From NCBI RefSeq assembly GCF_025989185.1, contig NZ_JAPDNT010000001.1, positions 620,001-684,000 of the forward strand: a DNA stretch of 64,000 nucleotides, written 5' to 3'. Under the pieces are notes generated by a model, which was not told where the DNA came from, did not search any database, and saw nothing but the letters and a program-made list of their open reading frames with translations. This DNA is from Limobrevibacterium gyesilva (GTDB lineage Bacteria > Pseudomonadota > Alphaproteobacteria > Acetobacterales > Acetobacteraceae). How positions within the stretch are numbered: the first letter of the stretch is position 1; each line of letters opens with the position of its first letter. Positions 3,935 through 47,136 of this stretch are shown here, piece after piece. The position numbers were made by a program, and so were the translations under genes.

Positions 3935-5086
3935 ATGCGCATGTGGAAGATCGCCGCGGCCACCGGCCTGGCGACGATGACGGCCATCGGTGCCGCCCAG
4001 GCCCAGGTGAAGGTCGGGATCATCACCTCGCTGTCCGGCCCGGCCGCCTCGATCGGCGTGCCCTATGCCAAGGGCTACGCCGCCTGGCAGGCCGGCGGCA
4101 CCGACGTCGCCGGCCAGAAGCTGACGATCATCCAGATCGACGACGCCTCCGACCCCTCGGTCGGAGCGCGGGCGGCGAAGAAGCTGATCGAGGAGGACAA
4201 GGTGGACGCCATCGTCGGCTCCGCCGGGGCGCCGACGTCGCTCGCGATCTACGGCGTGGCGGCGGAGGCGAAGGTGCCGATGATCATCACCGCCAACGCC
4301 CTGGTGCCCGGCGAGCGCGGCAACTGGGAGATCACCGTCCCGCAGCCGGCGCCGCTGATGATCTCGGCCGATGTCGAGCAGATGAAGAAGGCGGGCATCA
4401 AGACCATCGGCTATATCGGCTACAGCGATGCCTGGGGCGACCTCGTCTACGACTCGCTGGTGAAAGTGGTCGAGCCACAGGGCATCAAGGTCATCAGCAA
4501 CGAGCGCTACGCCCGCGCCGACACCAGCGTCACGCCGCAGATCCTGAAGATCATCGCCGCGCGCCCGGATGCGGTGTTCACCGGCGGCTCGGGCTCGCCG
4601 GGCGCGCTGCCGCATCTGGCGCTGGCGGAGCGCGGCTATCGCGGCCATGTCTACAGCACGCACGCCATCATCAACTCGGAGTTCGTGCGCGTCGGCGGCG
4701 CGGCCGTCGAGGGCATGATCGCGCCCACGGGCCCGGTGGTGGTGGCCGAGCAGCTTCCCGACAGCAACCCGATCAAGGCCGTGGCGCTGCGGTTCCGCGC
4801 CCTCTACGAGGAGGCGAACAACGAGAAGTCGAACGACGCCTTCGCCGCCTATGGCTATGACGCGCTGGTGATCCTGGCCGATGCGGTGAAGCGCACCGCG
4901 AACGGGCCCACGAAGCCGGGCACGCCGGAATACCGCGCGGCGCTGCGCGACGCGCTGGTGACGACGCAGGATCTGGTGGGCACGCACGCCGTCTACAACT
5001 TCAAGCCCGGCGAGCGTTACGGCACCGACGAGCGCTCGCGCGTGCTGGTGCGGCTGGATCACGGCGCCTGGAAGCTGGTGCAGTAG
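3935..5086 (+). CDS. Branched-chain-amino-acid-type ABC substrate-binding protein (orphan)
   Basis: A 383-residue periplasmic type I binding protein of the LivJ/LivK family. The first 24 residues are a Sec signal ending ...AQAQ. The mature part begins VKVGIITSLSGPAAS, the usual opening strand and first ligand-contact loop. A GGGGGA ribosome-binding site precedes the ATG. No permease or ATPase follows, so it must use a transporter encoded elsewhere, perhaps the liv system at 11.7-16.1 kb, or act as a sensor. Family members bind amino acids, amides, urea or aromatic acids. The divergent amidase makes an amide ligand plausible, which is an inference. Confidence 0.85.
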   Translation: MRMWKIAAATGLATMTAIGAAQAQVKVGIITSLSGPAASIGVPYAKGYAAWQAGGTDVAGQKLTIIQIDDASDPSVGARAAKKLIEEDKVDAIVGSAGAPTSLAIYGVAAEAKVPMIITANALVPGERGNWEITVPQPAPLMISADVEQMKKAGIKTIGYIGYSDAWGDLVYDSLVKVVEPQGIKVISNERYARADTSVTPQILKIIAARPDAVFTGGSGSPGALPHLALAERGYRGHVYSTHAIINSEFVRVGGAAVEGMIAPTGPVVVAEQLPDSNPIKAVALRFRALYEEANNEKSNDAFAAYGYDALVILADAVKRTANGPTKPGTPEYRAALRDALVTTQDLVGTHAVYNFKPGERYGTDERSRVLVRLDHGAWKLVQ

Positions 5087-5123
5087 ACACGCGCGAGGCC
5101 GAAGAGGGGCGCGAGGTTGACGG

Positions 5124-5152
5124 GGCGGGCAGGGGGTGCCTCTCTGCCCGCC
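5124..5152 (+). terminator. Stem-loop between binding-protein gene and udh
   Basis: A 9-bp perfect stem, GGCGGGCAG (5124-5132) against CTGCCCGCC (5144-5152), with an 11-base loop. It lies 38 bases after the binding-protein stop and just upstream of the GGAGG of the next gene. There is no T-run, so it may be a transcript-end stabiliser or partial attenuator rather than a full terminator. Confidence 0.45.
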
Positions 5153-5173
5153 TGATCCAAGGAGGCAACGACA

Positions 5174-6004
5174 ATGGCTGACATCCCCGCGAAGCCGGTT
5201 TTGCTGACGGGCGCGTCCGGCGCGCTCGGGCGGCATCTTGCGAAATCGTTGGGTACCGCGGGCTGGACCCTGAAGCTGACCGATATCGTGCCGTTCCCCG
5301 ACCCGATGCCGGCGAACAGCAGCTTCACCCGGGCCGACCTGAACAACGGCGTCGACATCCTGCGGCTGGCCGAAGGCTGCGGCATGATCCTGCATTTCGG
5401 CGGCGTCGCCACCGAGCACCCGTTCGAGGACGTGCTGGGCCCGAACATCCGCGGGCTTTACCACATCTACGAGGCCGCACGGCGCGAGAAGGCGCGGGTG
5501 CTGTTCGCCTCCTCCAACCACAGCATCGGCTTCCACGAGCGCGACGTGCCGCTGGACGACGACTGCCAGTTCATGCCGGACGGCTATTACGGCCTGTCCA
5601 AGGCCTATGGCGAGCTGATGGGCCGTATGTACTGGTACAAGCACGGCGTGGAGAACGTGAACGTGCGCATCGGCTCCTCGTTCCCCGAGCCGGTGGATGC
5701 GCGCATGCTGTCCACCTGGCTGTCCTATGACGACCTGACCCGGCTGTGCATCCGCGCCACCCTGGCGGAGAAGACCGGAAGCTGCGTCATCTGGGGCGCA
5801 TCGAAGAACAGCCGCACCTATTGGCGCCACGACGCGCGCGAGCAGCTCGGCTGGCTGCCGCAGGATTCCGCCGATCCCTATGCCGGGCAACTCGTCGGCA
5901 AGGTCAGCGACAATCCCATTCAGGAACGCTACCAGGGCGGCGCATACCCGGTGATGGACTACACCCGCACGGCGCCGCCGCCGGGCAGGCTGTTCGGCAA
6001 ATAG
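5174..6004 (+). CDS. udh: Uronate dehydrogenase (SDR family)
   Basis: A 276-residue extended short-chain dehydrogenase. It would oxidise D-galacturonate or D-glucuronate to the aldarolactone with NAD. The NAD motif is TGASGALGRHLAKSLG near the N terminus. VLFASSNHSIGFH supplies the active-site Ser/His region, and YYGLSKAYGE carries the YxxxK catalytic pair. The block RMLSTWLSYDDL followed by VIWGASKNS closely matches characterised Udh proteins. A GGAGG (5161-5165) sits 8 bases before the ATG. No aldarate pathway genes adjoin, so it stands alone here. Confidence 0.85.
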   Translation: MADIPAKPVLLTGASGALGRHLAKSLGTAGWTLKLTDIVPFPDPMPANSSFTRADLNNGVDILRLAEGCGMILHFGGVATEHPFEDVLGPNIRGLYHIYEAARREKARVLFASSNHSIGFHERDVPLDDDCQFMPDGYYGLSKAYGELMGRMYWYKHGVENVNVRIGSSFPEPVDARMLSTWLSYDDLTRLCIRATLAEKTGSCVIWGASKNSRTYWRHDAREQLGWLPQDSADPYAGQLVGKVSDNPIQERYQGGAYPVMDYTRTAPPPGRLFGK

Positions 6005-42100: not shown

Positions 42101-42139
42101 TACCGCGGTCGTAACTGCGGCGGCGAATTTTCTTCCTCC

Positions 42140-42155
42140 TGTGAATGCGTTCACT
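42140..42155. promoter_or_regulatory. CRP-like operator upstream of repeat protein
   Basis: TGTGA-ATGCGT-TCACT matches the CRP consensus TGTGA-N6-TCACA at 9 of 10 defined bases; the core GTGAA-TGCG-TTCAC is a perfect palindrome. It lies about 130 bases before the repeat-protein ATG and 40 bases after the oxidoreductase stop. A Crp/Fnr-family gene lies 0.9 kb downstream. Confidence 0.6.
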
Positions 42156-42285
42156 GCGCGCGTTGGCGCGCGGCGGCATTTTGCACCCCATCAGGCAGGC
42201 GGATTTCGGCGACATCGTGAAGCCTCCTGAAGCCGGACAAACCCGAACACAGTCCGCTCAGCGCGGACAAGCAATGGAGAATCCG

Positions 42286-42738
42286 ATGAACGCGAAACTG
42301 TTGGCGACGGTTGCCGCCCTGGGTCTTGCAGTGGCTCCGGTTCTGGTCGTTGGCGCTGGTGCCGCCACGCGCATCACGGGACAGGGCGCGGGAACGGCGG
42401 TGCTGGCCGAGCGTGACGGCGGCGGCGAGGGTGGCACCCTGCGGTTCGGCGAGCGCGACGGCGGCGGCGAGGGCGGCACCCTGCGGTTCGCCGAGGGCGC
42501 CAATGGCGGCCGAGGCGACATCAGCCGGTTCGGCGAGCGCGACGGCGGTGGCGAGGGCGGCACGATGCGGTACGCCGGTGCTGAGACGCCGACCTACGGC
42601 ACGAGCAAGCAGTTCGCCGGCGCCGAGACGCCGACCTACGGCACGAACAAGCAGTTCGCCGGTGCCGAGACGCCGACCTATGGCACGAACAAGCAGTTCG
42701 CCGGCGCCGAGACGATCACCGACAAGCTGATGGCCTGA
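42286..42738 (+). CDS. Secreted protein built of 14-residue tandem repeats
   Basis: A 150-residue protein I do not recognise. The ATG at 42286 has GGAG 6 bases upstream; another in-frame ATG lies at 42274. Residues 1-27 are a Sec-type signal. From residue 41 the rest is seven complete 14-residue units and a partial eighth. Units 1, 2 and 4 read (A/G)ERDGGGEGGTLRF or similar, unit 3 is a diverged form (AEGANGGRGDISRF), and units 5-7 read AGAETPTYGTNKQF with one Ser variant. Both kinds share the 14 period and end in a basic/polar residue plus an aromatic. The array is hydrophilic and low-complexity, suggesting an extracellular or cell-surface structural or matrix role. A CRP-like site lies upstream. 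Confidence 0.8.
   Translation: MNAKLLATVAALGLAVAPVLVVGAGAATRITGQGAGTAVLAERDGGGEGGTLRFGERDGGGEGGTLRFAEGANGGRGDISRFGERDGGGEGGTMRYAGAETPTYGTSKQFAGAETPTYGTNKQFAGAETPTYGTNKQFAGAETITDKLMA
42406..42738 (+). repeat. 42-bp tandem coding repeats (two subtypes)
   Basis: The DNA for residues 41-150 of the secreted protein repeats every 42 bases. The first four units share GAGCGNGACGGCGGCGGCGA-like sequence (third unit diverged); the last four share GCCGAGACGCCGACCTA. The in-frame period shows the two subtypes arose in one array. Confidence 0.85.
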
Positions 42739-42798
42739 CGACACGATCCCGCCGCGGGGATTCCCGGCACACCGAGGACAACAACCAGGAGGACGGCA

Positions 42799-42918
42799 AT
42801 GCTGGCAACACTCCTCGTCGCACTCGTTGCCTTGCTGGTTGCCGTCGTCTGCGGCGCTCTGGCAGCCCCCCTGACGGTCAAGCCCGAGGATGGGACGCGC
42901 TGGCACCAAACGCGGTAA
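42799..42918 (+). CDS. 39-residue single-span membrane peptide
   Basis: A small gene with a perfect AGGAGG (42787-42792) 6 bases before its ATG. The product has a hydrophobic N-terminal helix (residues 2-24, Leu/Val/Ala rich with one Cys18) and a short polar tail, VKPEDGTRWHQTR. It could be a lipoprotein-like leader (VVCGA) or a single-span peptide. It lies 60 bases after the repeat protein and is followed by a perfect terminator, so the two probably share a transcript. Not recognised; coding is supported by the ribosome-binding site and composition only. Confidence 0.65.
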   Translation: MLATLLVALVALLVAVVCGALAAPLTVKPEDGTRWHQTR

Positions 42919-42979
42919 CGCCCGCCGGCCACGGCGCCCAACGACAACGGTGGCACAATGGCGATGACGCATGTTGGGA

Positions 42980-43010
42980 GGGGCTGATCCATGCGGATCA
43001 GCCCCTTCTT
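42980..43010 (+). terminator. Rho-independent terminator
   Basis: GGGGCTGATCC (42980-42990) pairs perfectly with GGATCAGCCCC (42995-43005) around ATGC and is followed by TTCTT. It closes the unit that holds the repeat protein and the 39-residue peptide. Confidence 0.8.
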
Positions 43011-43090
43011 CACGCGCCAGCCGGCGATTCCACCGCGCCCGCGGATGCTCTAGGCTGCGGCGCCTTGTCCCCGAAACCGTGGGCGGTGCG

Positions 43091-43801
43091 ATGGCACGTT
43101 CGGCGCCGGCAGGCGATCTCGATGAAGCTGTCCATGGCCTGATCGGAAAGAACCCGATCCTGGGCAGCCTTCCGCCTGAGGAGCGGCGCGTCCTGGTTCG
43201 CCGGTCCGCGGTCCTGACATTGGAAGCGCGCGAGCCGCTGTTCGCCGAGGGTGACGAGGGGCGGGCGCTGTACGTGGTACTTCAAGGCTTCGTGAAACTG
43301 GCTTCGACGACACCCAGCGGGCGCGAGGTTATCCTGAATGTCGCGGGCCCCGGCAACGTGTTCGGCGAACTGGCCGTGCTGAACGGCTGGGCGCGGGCGG
43401 CCAGTGCCGTCGCCCTCTCGCCATGCCGGCTGCTGTCGATCGATGGGCGGATGCTCACGCAGGCGCTGGCAAAGACGCCGCAGGCGATGCTCGCGGTGAT
43501 CCGGCTGCTCAGCGAACGACTCAGCGCCACGACCGCACAGATGACCGATGCCGTCGACCTGCCGGCACCGGCCCGCCTGGCCAAGGCGTTGATCCATCTG
43601 GCGTCGCTGCACGCGCGCGCCGACCCGGATGGCCTGTGCATCGGCCTGCGGCTGTCGCAGCAGGAACTCGGGGCACTCACCGGGCTGACCCGCGAGAGCA
43701 TCAACAAGCACCTTGCACATTTCCGTGACGCCGGCTGCGTACGCCTCTCCGGCCGCGACATCACGGTCGTCGATCTCGGTGCGCTGCGGCAATATTTGTG
43801 A
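43091..43801 (+). CDS. Crp/Fnr-family transcriptional regulator
   Basis: A 236-residue regulator with an N-terminal cyclic-nucleotide-binding-like beta-barrel and a C-terminal HTH. The phosphate-cassette region reads GNVFGELAVLNGWARAASAVA: the Glu and Arg that contact cAMP in CRP are kept, but the adjacent Ser is Ala. No N-terminal Fe-S cysteine cluster is present, so it is not an oxygen-sensing FNR. The recognition helix LTRESINKHLAHF keeps the Arg-Glu pair that reads GTGA, with Lys in place of CRP Arg185. The ATG at 43091 follows the terminator by 80 bases. It is convergent with the protease gene. Confidence 0.9.
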   Translation: MARSAPAGDLDEAVHGLIGKNPILGSLPPEERRVLVRRSAVLTLEAREPLFAEGDEGRALYVVLQGFVKLASTTPSGREVILNVAGPGNVFGELAVLNGWARAASAVALSPCRLLSIDGRMLTQALAKTPQAMLAVIRLLSERLSATTAQMTDAVDLPAPARLAKALIHLASLHARADPDGLCIGLRLSQQELGALTGLTRESINKHLAHFRDAGCVRLSGRDITVVDLGALRQYL

Positions 43802-45312: not shown

Positions 45313-45351
45313 CACGCGTTCGCGCCATCGCCGGCATAGGCGCGCGTGATG
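45310..45351. promoter_or_regulatory. Symmetrical divergent start region
   Basis: The two divergent genes begin in mirror image: CGCGTGATG occurs at 43-51 past 45300 on the plus strand and as CATCACGCG at 45310-45318 for the minus strand. Both read GTG-ATG-GC. Only 24 bases separate the inverted 9-mers and no Shine-Dalgarno is visible for either. A central CATAGG (45335-45340) could serve as a -10-like element on either strand. Leaderless transcripts are possible. Confidence 0.5.
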
Positions 45352-47136
45352 GCCGCCCGCGCAGGCTCCGGCGAGGCGACCCGCGGCAGGCGCCGGCTCG
45401 CGGCGGTCGCGTTCGCCGATATCGTCGGCTACTCGATCCTGATGGCGACGGACGAGAAGCGGACGCACGCCGCCTGGATGAAGATCCTCAAGGATGTCAT
45501 CCGGCCGAAGGCGCAGCGGCATCACGGAATCGTGGTGAAATTGACCGGAGATGGCATCCTCGCCGAATTCGCAAGCGCGCTCGACGCGGTCGAATGGGCG
45601 CAGGATGTGCAAAGATCCGTGAACGCGGTCCCCGATGATGCGGCAGACGACGCGCCGCCGATCGCGCTGCGCATCGCCGTCCATGTCGGCGACATCGTGA
45701 GCGATCACGGCGACATCTATGGCGACGGCGTCAATGTCGCCGCACGGCTGCAGGAGTTCGCCAAGCCGGGCGGCATCGTGCTGTCCGAGGCGGTGTACGA
45801 CCTGGTGCGCGGAACCGCCGGCGCCGGCGCCCGCGATCTCGGCTATCAGTATCTGAAGAATTTCGAAAAGCCGGTGCGGGCCTACGCGCTCGGCGCCGAC
45901 GTTCCGGCGGCCGCCCATCCGGTCGGCGCCCGGCAAGGGCCGCTGCCGTCGATCGCGGTGCTGCCGCTGCAGAATCTCGGCGGCGATCCCGCCGACGCCT
46001 ATTTCGCCGAAGGCATTGTCGAGGACATCGTTGTCTCGCTGGCGGGTCTTGGCGAGCTGCTGGTCATTTCGCGCGCATCGACGCTGACCTACCAGGGGCG
46101 ACAGCCCGATCCGCGCGAGGCCGGGCGCGCGCTGGGTGTTCGCTACGTGCTGATGGGCAGCGTCCGCCGGTCGCCGCGCCTGATCCGCGTATCCGTGCAG
46201 CTCTGCGATGCCACCAGCGGCGCCAGCCTGTGGGGCGAGACAACCGAGGTGCCGCCTGGCGAATTGTTCGATGTCCAGGACCGGATCGTCTGGAAGATCG
46301 TGGCCGGCATCGCGCCGAACGTGCGCGCGGCGGAGTTGCGCGCGGCGCTGCGCAAGCGGCCGGAAAGCTTCACCGCCTATGACTACACCCTGCGCGGATT
46401 GCACGTCCTCAACAGCCTGGACCACGCCACCTTTCCGCAGGCGCGCGTGTTCCTGACAAAGGCGATGGCCGAAGACCAGTATTTCGCCATGCCCTTCGCG
46501 TGGCTCGCCTGGTGGCACCTTCTGCTTGTCGGGCAAGGCTGGTCGGACCATCCGGATGACGACATCGCCCAGGCCGGCGCGATGGCGGCGCGCGCGATCG
46601 AGCTGGACCGGCAGAACGCGCTCGCACTGGCGATTTACGGACACGTGAAGTCGTTTCTGTTTCATGATTGCGATATCGCCATGATATATCTCGACCAGGC
46701 ATTGTCGGCCTGCCCGAACAGTTCGCTGGCGTGGCTTCTGTCGAGCGTCACGCAGGCCTATCTCGGCCATGGCGAGGAAGCGGTGCGGCGGGCCGAGCAC
46801 GGCCTGCGGCTGTCGCCGTTCGACCAGTCGCTTTTCCTGACGCACAACATCCTGTGCATCGCGCATTACGTGAACGGCGCCTATGAGGAGGCAGTCAAGT
46901 GGGGGCGGCTGTCGCAGCGGGAGAACCCGGCGTTCACCGCAAATCTCCGCATCCTCATTGCATCCCTGGTGGCTGCCGGGCGGCTCGACGAAGCGCGCGA
47001 TGTGGCGACGGATCTGATGAAGCTCGAACCGGACTTTCGCATCGGCGAATGGGAGAAGACCCGACATCCGTTTCGTCATCCGCACATCCGGGCGCAGCAC
47101 GTCGAGCGGCTGCGCCGGGCGGGGCTGCCGCAATAG
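45349..47136 (+). CDS. Class III adenylate/guanylate cyclase with TolB-like and TPR domains
   Basis: A 595-residue signalling protein. The cyclase domain (residues about 17-185) keeps both metal Asp residues, in AVAFADIVGYS and VKLTGDGILAEF, and the transition-state Asn/Arg in DGVNVAARLQE. It is followed by a FlgO/TolB-like segment opening SIAVLPLQNLGGDPADAYFA (about 203-320), and C-terminal TPR-like helices. This three-part layout is frequent in alpha- and other proteobacteria. No membrane helix is evident. The start is GTG (45346) or ATG (45349). The product would be cAMP or cGMP; a Crp-family gene lies 1.5 kb away. Confidence 0.87.
   Translation: MAARAGSGEATRGRRRLAAVAFADIVGYSILMATDEKRTHAAWMKILKDVIRPKAQRHHGIVVKLTGDGILAEFASALDAVEWAQDVQRSVNAVPDDAADDAPPIALRIAVHVGDIVSDHGDIYGDGVNVAARLQEFAKPGGIVLSEAVYDLVRGTAGAGARDLGYQYLKNFEKPVRAYALGADVPAAAHPVGARQGPLPSIAVLPLQNLGGDPADAYFAEGIVEDIVVSLAGLGELLVISRASTLTYQGRQPDPREAGRALGVRYVLMGSVRRSPRLIRVSVQLCDATSGASLWGETTEVPPGELFDVQDRIVWKIVAGIAPNVRAAELRAALRKRPESFTAYDYTLRGLHVLNSLDHATFPQARVFLTKAMAEDQYFAMPFAWLAWWHLLLVGQGWSDHPDDDIAQAGAMAARAIELDRQNALALAIYGHVKSFLFHDCDIAMIYLDQALSACPNSSLAWLLSSVTQAYLGHGEEAVRRAEHGLRLSPFDQSLFLTHNILCIAHYVNGAYEEAVKWGRLSQRENPAFTANLRILIASLVAAGRLDEARDVATDLMKLEPDFRIGEWEKTRHPFRHPHIRAQHVERLRRAGLPQ

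Follow-up and report, generated by a model that had tools for sequence, protein, structure and literature searches.

A conserved CRP-type site before an exported repeat-protein gene of Limobrevibacterium gyesilva and its likeliest reader, a linked Crp-family regulator

The 64,000-nucleotide stretch of Limobrevibacterium gyesilva DNA analysed here (hereafter, the window) contains a CRP-like palindrome that is preceded by a molybdopterin oxidoreductase gene and followed by one encoding an exported tandem-repeat protein; a Crp-family regulator gene lies shortly downstream (Table 1). This arrangement raises the questions of whether the palindrome is a real operator and which protein reads it. A preliminary description proposed direct regulation of the repeat gene by the neighbouring regulator, based on the match between its recognition helix and the site. 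We consider it probable that the palindrome is a class II CRP-type activator site for the repeat gene, most likely read by the product of 43091-43801. As judged from sequence comparison, there is good support for a genuine CRP-type site that drives the repeat gene; the neighbouring regulator appears to be the likeliest reader, which is less certain than the site itself. The mechanism is an ordinary one, and the example, as a regulon member, is new.

Table 1. Features around the CRP-type site in the window. L062 and L054 are the loci of the two nearest orthologues of the regulator.
Feature	Position	Strand	Remarks
Molybdopterin oxidoreductase gene	ends 42100		Precedes the site
T-rich stretch AATTTTCTTCCTCC	42126..42139	+	Adjoins the site upstream; AATTTT also before the site in L062 and L054
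CRP-type operator TGTGA-N6-TCACT, TGTGAATGCGTTCACT	42140..42155	+	Inner palindrome GTGAA-N4-TTCAC; core kept in L062 and L054
CATTTT, weak -10-like hexamer	42177..42182	+	Starts 29.5 bp from the site centre; putative promoter element
Exported tandem-repeat protein gene	42286..42738	+	In-frame alternative ATG at 42274; stop ends at 42738
39-aa single-TM ORF (by eye)	42799..42918	+	AGGAGG-type ribosome site
Strong terminator-like hairpin ending CCCCUUCUUC	42976..43009	+	Between the repeat-gene unit and the regulator
Crp-family regulator	43091..43801	+	ATG at 43091; helix TRESINKHL; putative reader of the site

The site agreed with TGTGA-N6-TCACA at 9 of 10 positions, as had been claimed, and with a threshold of at least 9 of 10 it was classed as CRP-type and not FNR-type. 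No other position in the 64-kb window matched with one mismatch or fewer. Dinucleotide-shuffled 64-kb sequences contained a mean of 0.76 such matches, with at least one in 56 of 100 shuffles; with about one chance match per 64 kb, the sequence of the site alone is therefore weak evidence. Its position counts, because a match fell within the 185 bp upstream of the repeat gene in only 15 of 5000 shuffles; for the interval 42101-43090, the corresponding figure was 12 of 1000. In the whole genome, TGTGA-N6-TCAC occurred at 16 distinct places (20 strand matches vs 2 for the reversed pattern). The numbers of distinct places for spacers N2 to N10 were 1, 6, 4, 5, 16, 7, 3, 11, and 4, respectively, N6 ranking first and N9 next. 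The random distribution that the preliminary description had named as a counter-argument was thus not what the genome scan revealed: N6 was the favoured spacer, and a -10-like hexamer lay at a fixed distance, as described below.

Orthologues of the regulator are rare: matches at 1e-30 were found in 24 of 150 family genomes, its own included, and eight others showed 46-61% identity. A second scan gave 11 loci, nine of them at 43-62% identity, L062 (62%) and L069 (43%) being new; the two remote loci (35% and 21%) were left out. The nine loci were from Acetobacteraceae, uncultured Rhodospirillales, Rhodospirillaceae, Proteobacteria, and Acidisphaera rubrifaciens, an Acetobacteraceae species. The two nearest orthologues, 61-62% identical to the regulator, were those of L062, which is the same contig stretch as that of genome G240, and L054, which corresponds to genome G020. 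Both loci had the order regulator, DegP-like protease, site, and repeat gene; the protease of L062 contained Trypsin_2 and PDZ domains, and the L054 protein was likened to it by eye. The site in both was TGTGAATGCATTCATA, with the core TGTGAATGCATTCA, directly before an exported repeat-protein gene, and CGNCATTNTGC (CATTYTGC) was located at an identical offset from the site in the window, L062, and L054. Ungapped comparison revealed that the window shared a 16-base stretch (one mismatch) with L062 and a 28-base stretch with L054, and the scores of both were reached by none of 300 shuffles. Downstream of the site, the match between the window and L062 was equalled in 127, 30, and 6 of 5000 shuffles for 8, 11, and 15 bases, respectively. 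Because L062 and L054 are mutually close, the conservation among the three loci amounts to nearly a two-way comparison. The pattern TGTGAATGCNTTCA had 19 matches in 397 genomes, one per genome, with one reversed-control match seen. Its matches in the window, G240, and G020 preceded repeat genes; behind 16 of the 19, no repeat gene was seen within the stretch listed, and many of these were in coding sequence.

Two further features were observed in the relatives. The 5′ leader of the repeat gene (L062 5210-5280 and the L054 equivalent) was highly conserved and contained inverted arms, TGCGTTCA and TGAACGCA, flanking a GAGCA...TGCTC hairpin that directly precedes the ribosome site; none was seen by eye in the window. 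A membrane protein with a part resembling a cyclic-nucleotide-binding domain by eye adjoined the repeat gene (L062 6046-6663; L054 about 4900-5878).

In class II promoters, the CRP site is centred at -41.5, and the -10 hexamer hence lies 29.5 bp from the site centre. Judged by spacing, the CATTTT at 42177 would place the window site at -41.5. Hexamers with A2 and T6 were counted around 60 palindromes, in both orientations, from six genomes with the regulator (G051, G002, G128, G020, G240, and G090); 6 of the 26 G090 sites, the regulator-proximal G051 and G002 sites, two unlisted G128 sites, and 7 sites of G039, G080, and G023 were omitted. At offset 29, such hexamers occurred in 23 of 120 orientations, compared with a mean of 4.5 and a maximum of 11 at other offsets from 10 to 89. 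The counts for G051, G002, G128, and G090 were 8 of 32, 3 of 20, 4 of 20, and 8 of 40, respectively, and the four palindromes of G020 and G240 had none (0 of 8); the L. gyesilva genome had 3 of 8. Six genomes without a close orthologue, sampled from 11 and represented by 40 of their 41 sites, gave 21 of 80 orientations at offset 29 and a mean of 2.9 at other offsets. Of these six, G041 and G098 contain a relative at 33-34% identity, whose helix in G098 is SRESINKYI. Since the peak also appears without a close orthologue, the motif is not private to the linked regulator. Near these regulators, in a set picked after the first site had been seen, six of the seven sites before exported or membrane genes (window, L062, L054, L058, L059, L061, and L069) had A2/T6 at offset 29 in the form CANNNT, and none of the five sites before regulator genes themselves had it. 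These positional data indicate that class II CRP-type promoters in Acetobacteraceae are real and that those of the form TGTGA-N6-TCACA are widespread. In Escherichia coli class II promoters of the galP1 type, the CRP site overlaps the -35 region (PMC5449483); by sequence position, the window site would share this placement.

The helix TRESINKH attributed to the nearby regulator was found there, as LTRESINKHL. The protein contains a cNMP-binding domain and HTH_Crp_2, which, with the R-E...R/K helix, assign it to the CRP/GlxR-like branch of the Crp/Fnr superfamily. It scored 79.7 bits against the Crp equivalog NF008732 (PRK11753), below the cut-off of 266, and was therefore filed as CRP-like and not as Crp. 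Proteins of the FNR/FixK type have a V/I-E..S-R helix reading TTGAT; this type was rejected for the regulator, such a helix (LTIETVSR) belonging to the C49 protein of the same genome. The closest solved relatives of the regulator were 3r6s, 4byy, and 4cyd, which we take to be GlxR (the name agrees with PMC4254451), together with the CRP/FNR-family chains 3d0s and 3mzh. The regulator helix TRESINKHLAHF was aligned with the GlxR helix SRETVNKALATF at an E value of 1e-33 (1.3e-33). GlxR of Corynebacterium glutamicum, a CRP/FNR-family protein and the closest solved relative, resembles the regulator in its recognition helix (SRETVNK against TRESINK). It binds TGTGANNTANNTCACA, mostly as an activator (PMC4254451). 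Many carbon-metabolism genes are under GlxR control.

The pocket residues of E. coli CRP are Glu72, Arg82, Ser83, Thr127, and Ser128. In an alignment of orthologues set against CRP by eye, Glu93, Arg102, and Thr148 (the Ser128 position) were invariant, and the Ser83 and Thr127 positions varied; directly after the conserved pocket Arg, the regulator has Ala and GlxR has Thr. With Glu93 and Arg102 invariant among the orthologues and the CRP Ser83 position not, the regulator may have a cyclic-nucleotide ligand. The window also encodes, at 45346-47136 and 1.5 kb past the regulator, a Guanylate_cyc domain protein with TPR-like matches below the cut-off, which is a possible source of the ligand. CgrA of the Gram-negative Rhodospirillum centenum is a CRP homologue that uses cGMP; its footprint, TGTGA-N6-TCACA, equals the E. 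coli CRP consensus, and it acts as an activator of gcyB and gcyC and of its own expression (PMC4681086). The likeness to CgrA refers to the site and the published description, and the gene orders differ: CgrA is encoded in a gcyB-gcyC-cgrA operon, whereas the window has one cyclase gene and an opposite-strand gene between it and the regulator.

The R-E...K argument for a residue-site match is sound, but it does not single out the neighbour, because the paralogue C13 of the same genome has SRESVNKQL, which shares the key residues; the paralogue C10, with TRETFSRAL, also carries R-E. A better-matching paralogue had been named beforehand as a reason to doubt the assignment, and an equal helix match does exist in C13; linkage still favours the neighbour. 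The linked regulator is thus favoured as the reader on account of conserved genomic linkage and not of helix residues. An N6 site of at least 9 of 10 was present in 8 of 11 orthologue loci of 2.5-6.7 kb (L028, which is the window itself, L031, L032, L033, L034, L036, L062, and L069) and not in L029, L030, and L035; for G020, a ninth orthologue, it was found in the larger locus L054. In contrast, none of the six C13-family loci had such a site. Among the other Crp loci from the 150-genome scan, the proportion was 4 of 17, with L053, a C13-type gene of G128, among them. A scan of 510-base upstream stretches, with rows for 21 of 28 loci, gave a 9-10/10 site in 5 of 10 RESINK orthologue rows, none of which reached 9 with other spacers from 2 to 10, and in none of the 8 RESVNK rows. 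L042, encoding a more distant SRESINKHL protein, also had a 9-10/10 site upstream. Autoregulation from a proximal site was not supported for the window, the best match in the regulator's own 510-base upstream stretch being 7/10.

An unlikely alternative is that the activator site is real but read by another paralogue, chiefly C13 (or C10), as part of a general regulon, with the neighbour incidental or sharing the site. The key helix residues are identical in C13, and its relatives (57-74% identity) occur in G020, G240, G128, G051, and G002. TGTGA-N6-TCACA exceeded the reversed control family-wide, which, like the class II peak in genomes without a close orthologue, fits this alternative. Sites also accompany other Crp-type genes: TGTGA-N6-TCAC at G000:C10:44373-44387 either coincides with the start of the TRETFSRAL gene or lies shortly within it, depending on the start codon, and suggests autoregulation of that paralogue, and two perfect palindromes (G090:C661:8613 and 8808) lie just before the Crp-like gene C661:9094-9753, whose product is 26% identical to the C13 paralogue. 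Against this stand the difference in linkage (0 of 6 vs 8 of 11 loci) and the four genomes G090, G039, G080, and G023 (assemblies 87-94% complete), which have the linked regulator and a best C13 relative of at most 38% identity; G090 has the most palindromes of the 150 genomes (26). The median number of palindromes per genome was 4 in the 9 genomes with the linked regulator, 2 in the 15 with only distant Crp relatives, and 1 in the other 126 (Mann-Whitney, relatedness ignored: first group vs all others, P 5e-5; second vs third, P 0.001). Assigning the reader by these counts was rejected, as genomes with only distant relatives were also raised (2 vs 1), and the counts are supportive only. Of the direct regulation originally proposed, CRP-type control of the repeat gene stood, based on the conserved site, the -10 distance, and linkage in two relatives, and the choice of a specific reader by residues did not.

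Under the preferred reading, activation by the linked regulator, the site would be bound by a Crp-family homodimer, most likely that of the 43091-43801 product, through its GlxR/CRP-like R-E...K helix. Centred at about -41.5, the protein would recruit RNA polymerase to the weak -10 hexamer, and the repeat-protein gene, probably with the small membrane ORF behind it, would be switched on. We infer binding, activation over repression, and the choice of paralogue. The T-rich stretch is a possible alpha-CTD contact. The 39-aa ORF, probably the second gene of the repeat-gene unit, matched no Pfam family and showed weak, largely hydrophobic similarity to small TM ORFs beside the G128 and G051 regulators. 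The hairpin behind it (region 42965-43020, -36 kcal/mol, z -5.8) escaped the terminator scan owing to the T-run rule applied there; with this hairpin in between, transcription is unlikely to continue from the repeat unit into the regulator.

That the site is real but represses, with RNA polymerase blocked rather than recruited, seems quite improbable. In L062, the site is flanked by TTGACA immediately upstream and TGGTATGG immediately downstream, so that the bound protein would cover a promoter, and no hexamer at offset 29 accompanies the sites before regulator genes. However, neither L062 element is conserved in the window, whereas CATTYTGC is kept there at the class II distance, and the offset peak extends over many sites. 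Least probable of all is a chance match or a part of the upstream gene's terminal hairpin with no binding protein, which the chance expectation per window and the pairing of AATGC with GCATT around a GC-rich stem would allow, but the site and spacing are kept before a different repeat gene and the surroundings of the site fold no better than shuffles (z -0.67; 48 of 200 folded equally well).

The repeat protein of the window has a signal-peptide-like N-terminus followed by 14-residue repeats, export being judged by eye throughout this study, and it had no match among the families of Pfam (threshold 0.01) or NCBIfam (threshold 0.05). The L062 and L054 proteins also have a signal-peptide-like start, followed by 17 and 15 copies, respectively, of an 11-residue repeat around AGASGSEAPK. 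The two repeats differ in sequence; AGA is common to both, and the proteins may be distantly related. An exported repeat family without a Pfam or NCBIfam model is thus tied to a regulator and a promoter architecture, which makes its expression directly testable. The literature search gave nothing on the regulator or the repeat proteins among the matches listed; a review of acetic acid bacteria describes the CRP gene as apparently absent in Gluconobacter (PMC8102297).

A second exported repeat gene of the same family is present in the L. gyesilva genome (G000:C34:129296-129739; L084 2797-3240), between a glycerol-3-phosphate dehydrogenase-like gene before it and a MurJ-like gene after it (by eye), and one stretch of its AGAETPTYGTNKQF units is 96% identical to that of the window. 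The repeat-gene family as a general regulon was not supported, no site being found at this paralogue (best 7/10) or at the relatives in G170 and G296 (best 6/10) in a check that left out five weak-match genomes (G063, G128, G139, G234, and G293).

Beside orthologues of the regulator, a site also preceded the gene for an exported 306-aa protein in G080 (L061 5465) and that for a small exported protein in L069 (4118), and 8/10 matches were located before a small membrane ORF in G051 and a 40-aa exported peptide in G128, the G128 match also ending a perfect hairpin. G023 had a small exported ORF without a site, and G002, G039, and G090 had no exported neighbour with a site in the stretches examined. 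A tentative generalization is that the regulator, a class II site, and a fast-changing exported protein form a recurrent Acetobacteraceae module, treated here as a hypothesis because export was judged by eye. Its products would include the 14-residue repeats of the window, the 11-residue repeats of G020 and G240, and the other exported or membrane proteins of G080, L069, G128, and G051. If the module holds, the switch and linkage would be kept while the exported product is replaced, which would point to a surface or envelope that varies under the control of a dedicated regulator of the cyclic-nucleotide type.

Perfect TGTGA-N6-TCACA palindromes were also observed 65-89 bases before the starts of TssB-like genes (by eye) in L135, L161, L163, and L165 (G051, G128, G020, and G240, respectively), which suggests CRP-type control of T6SS in these genomes.
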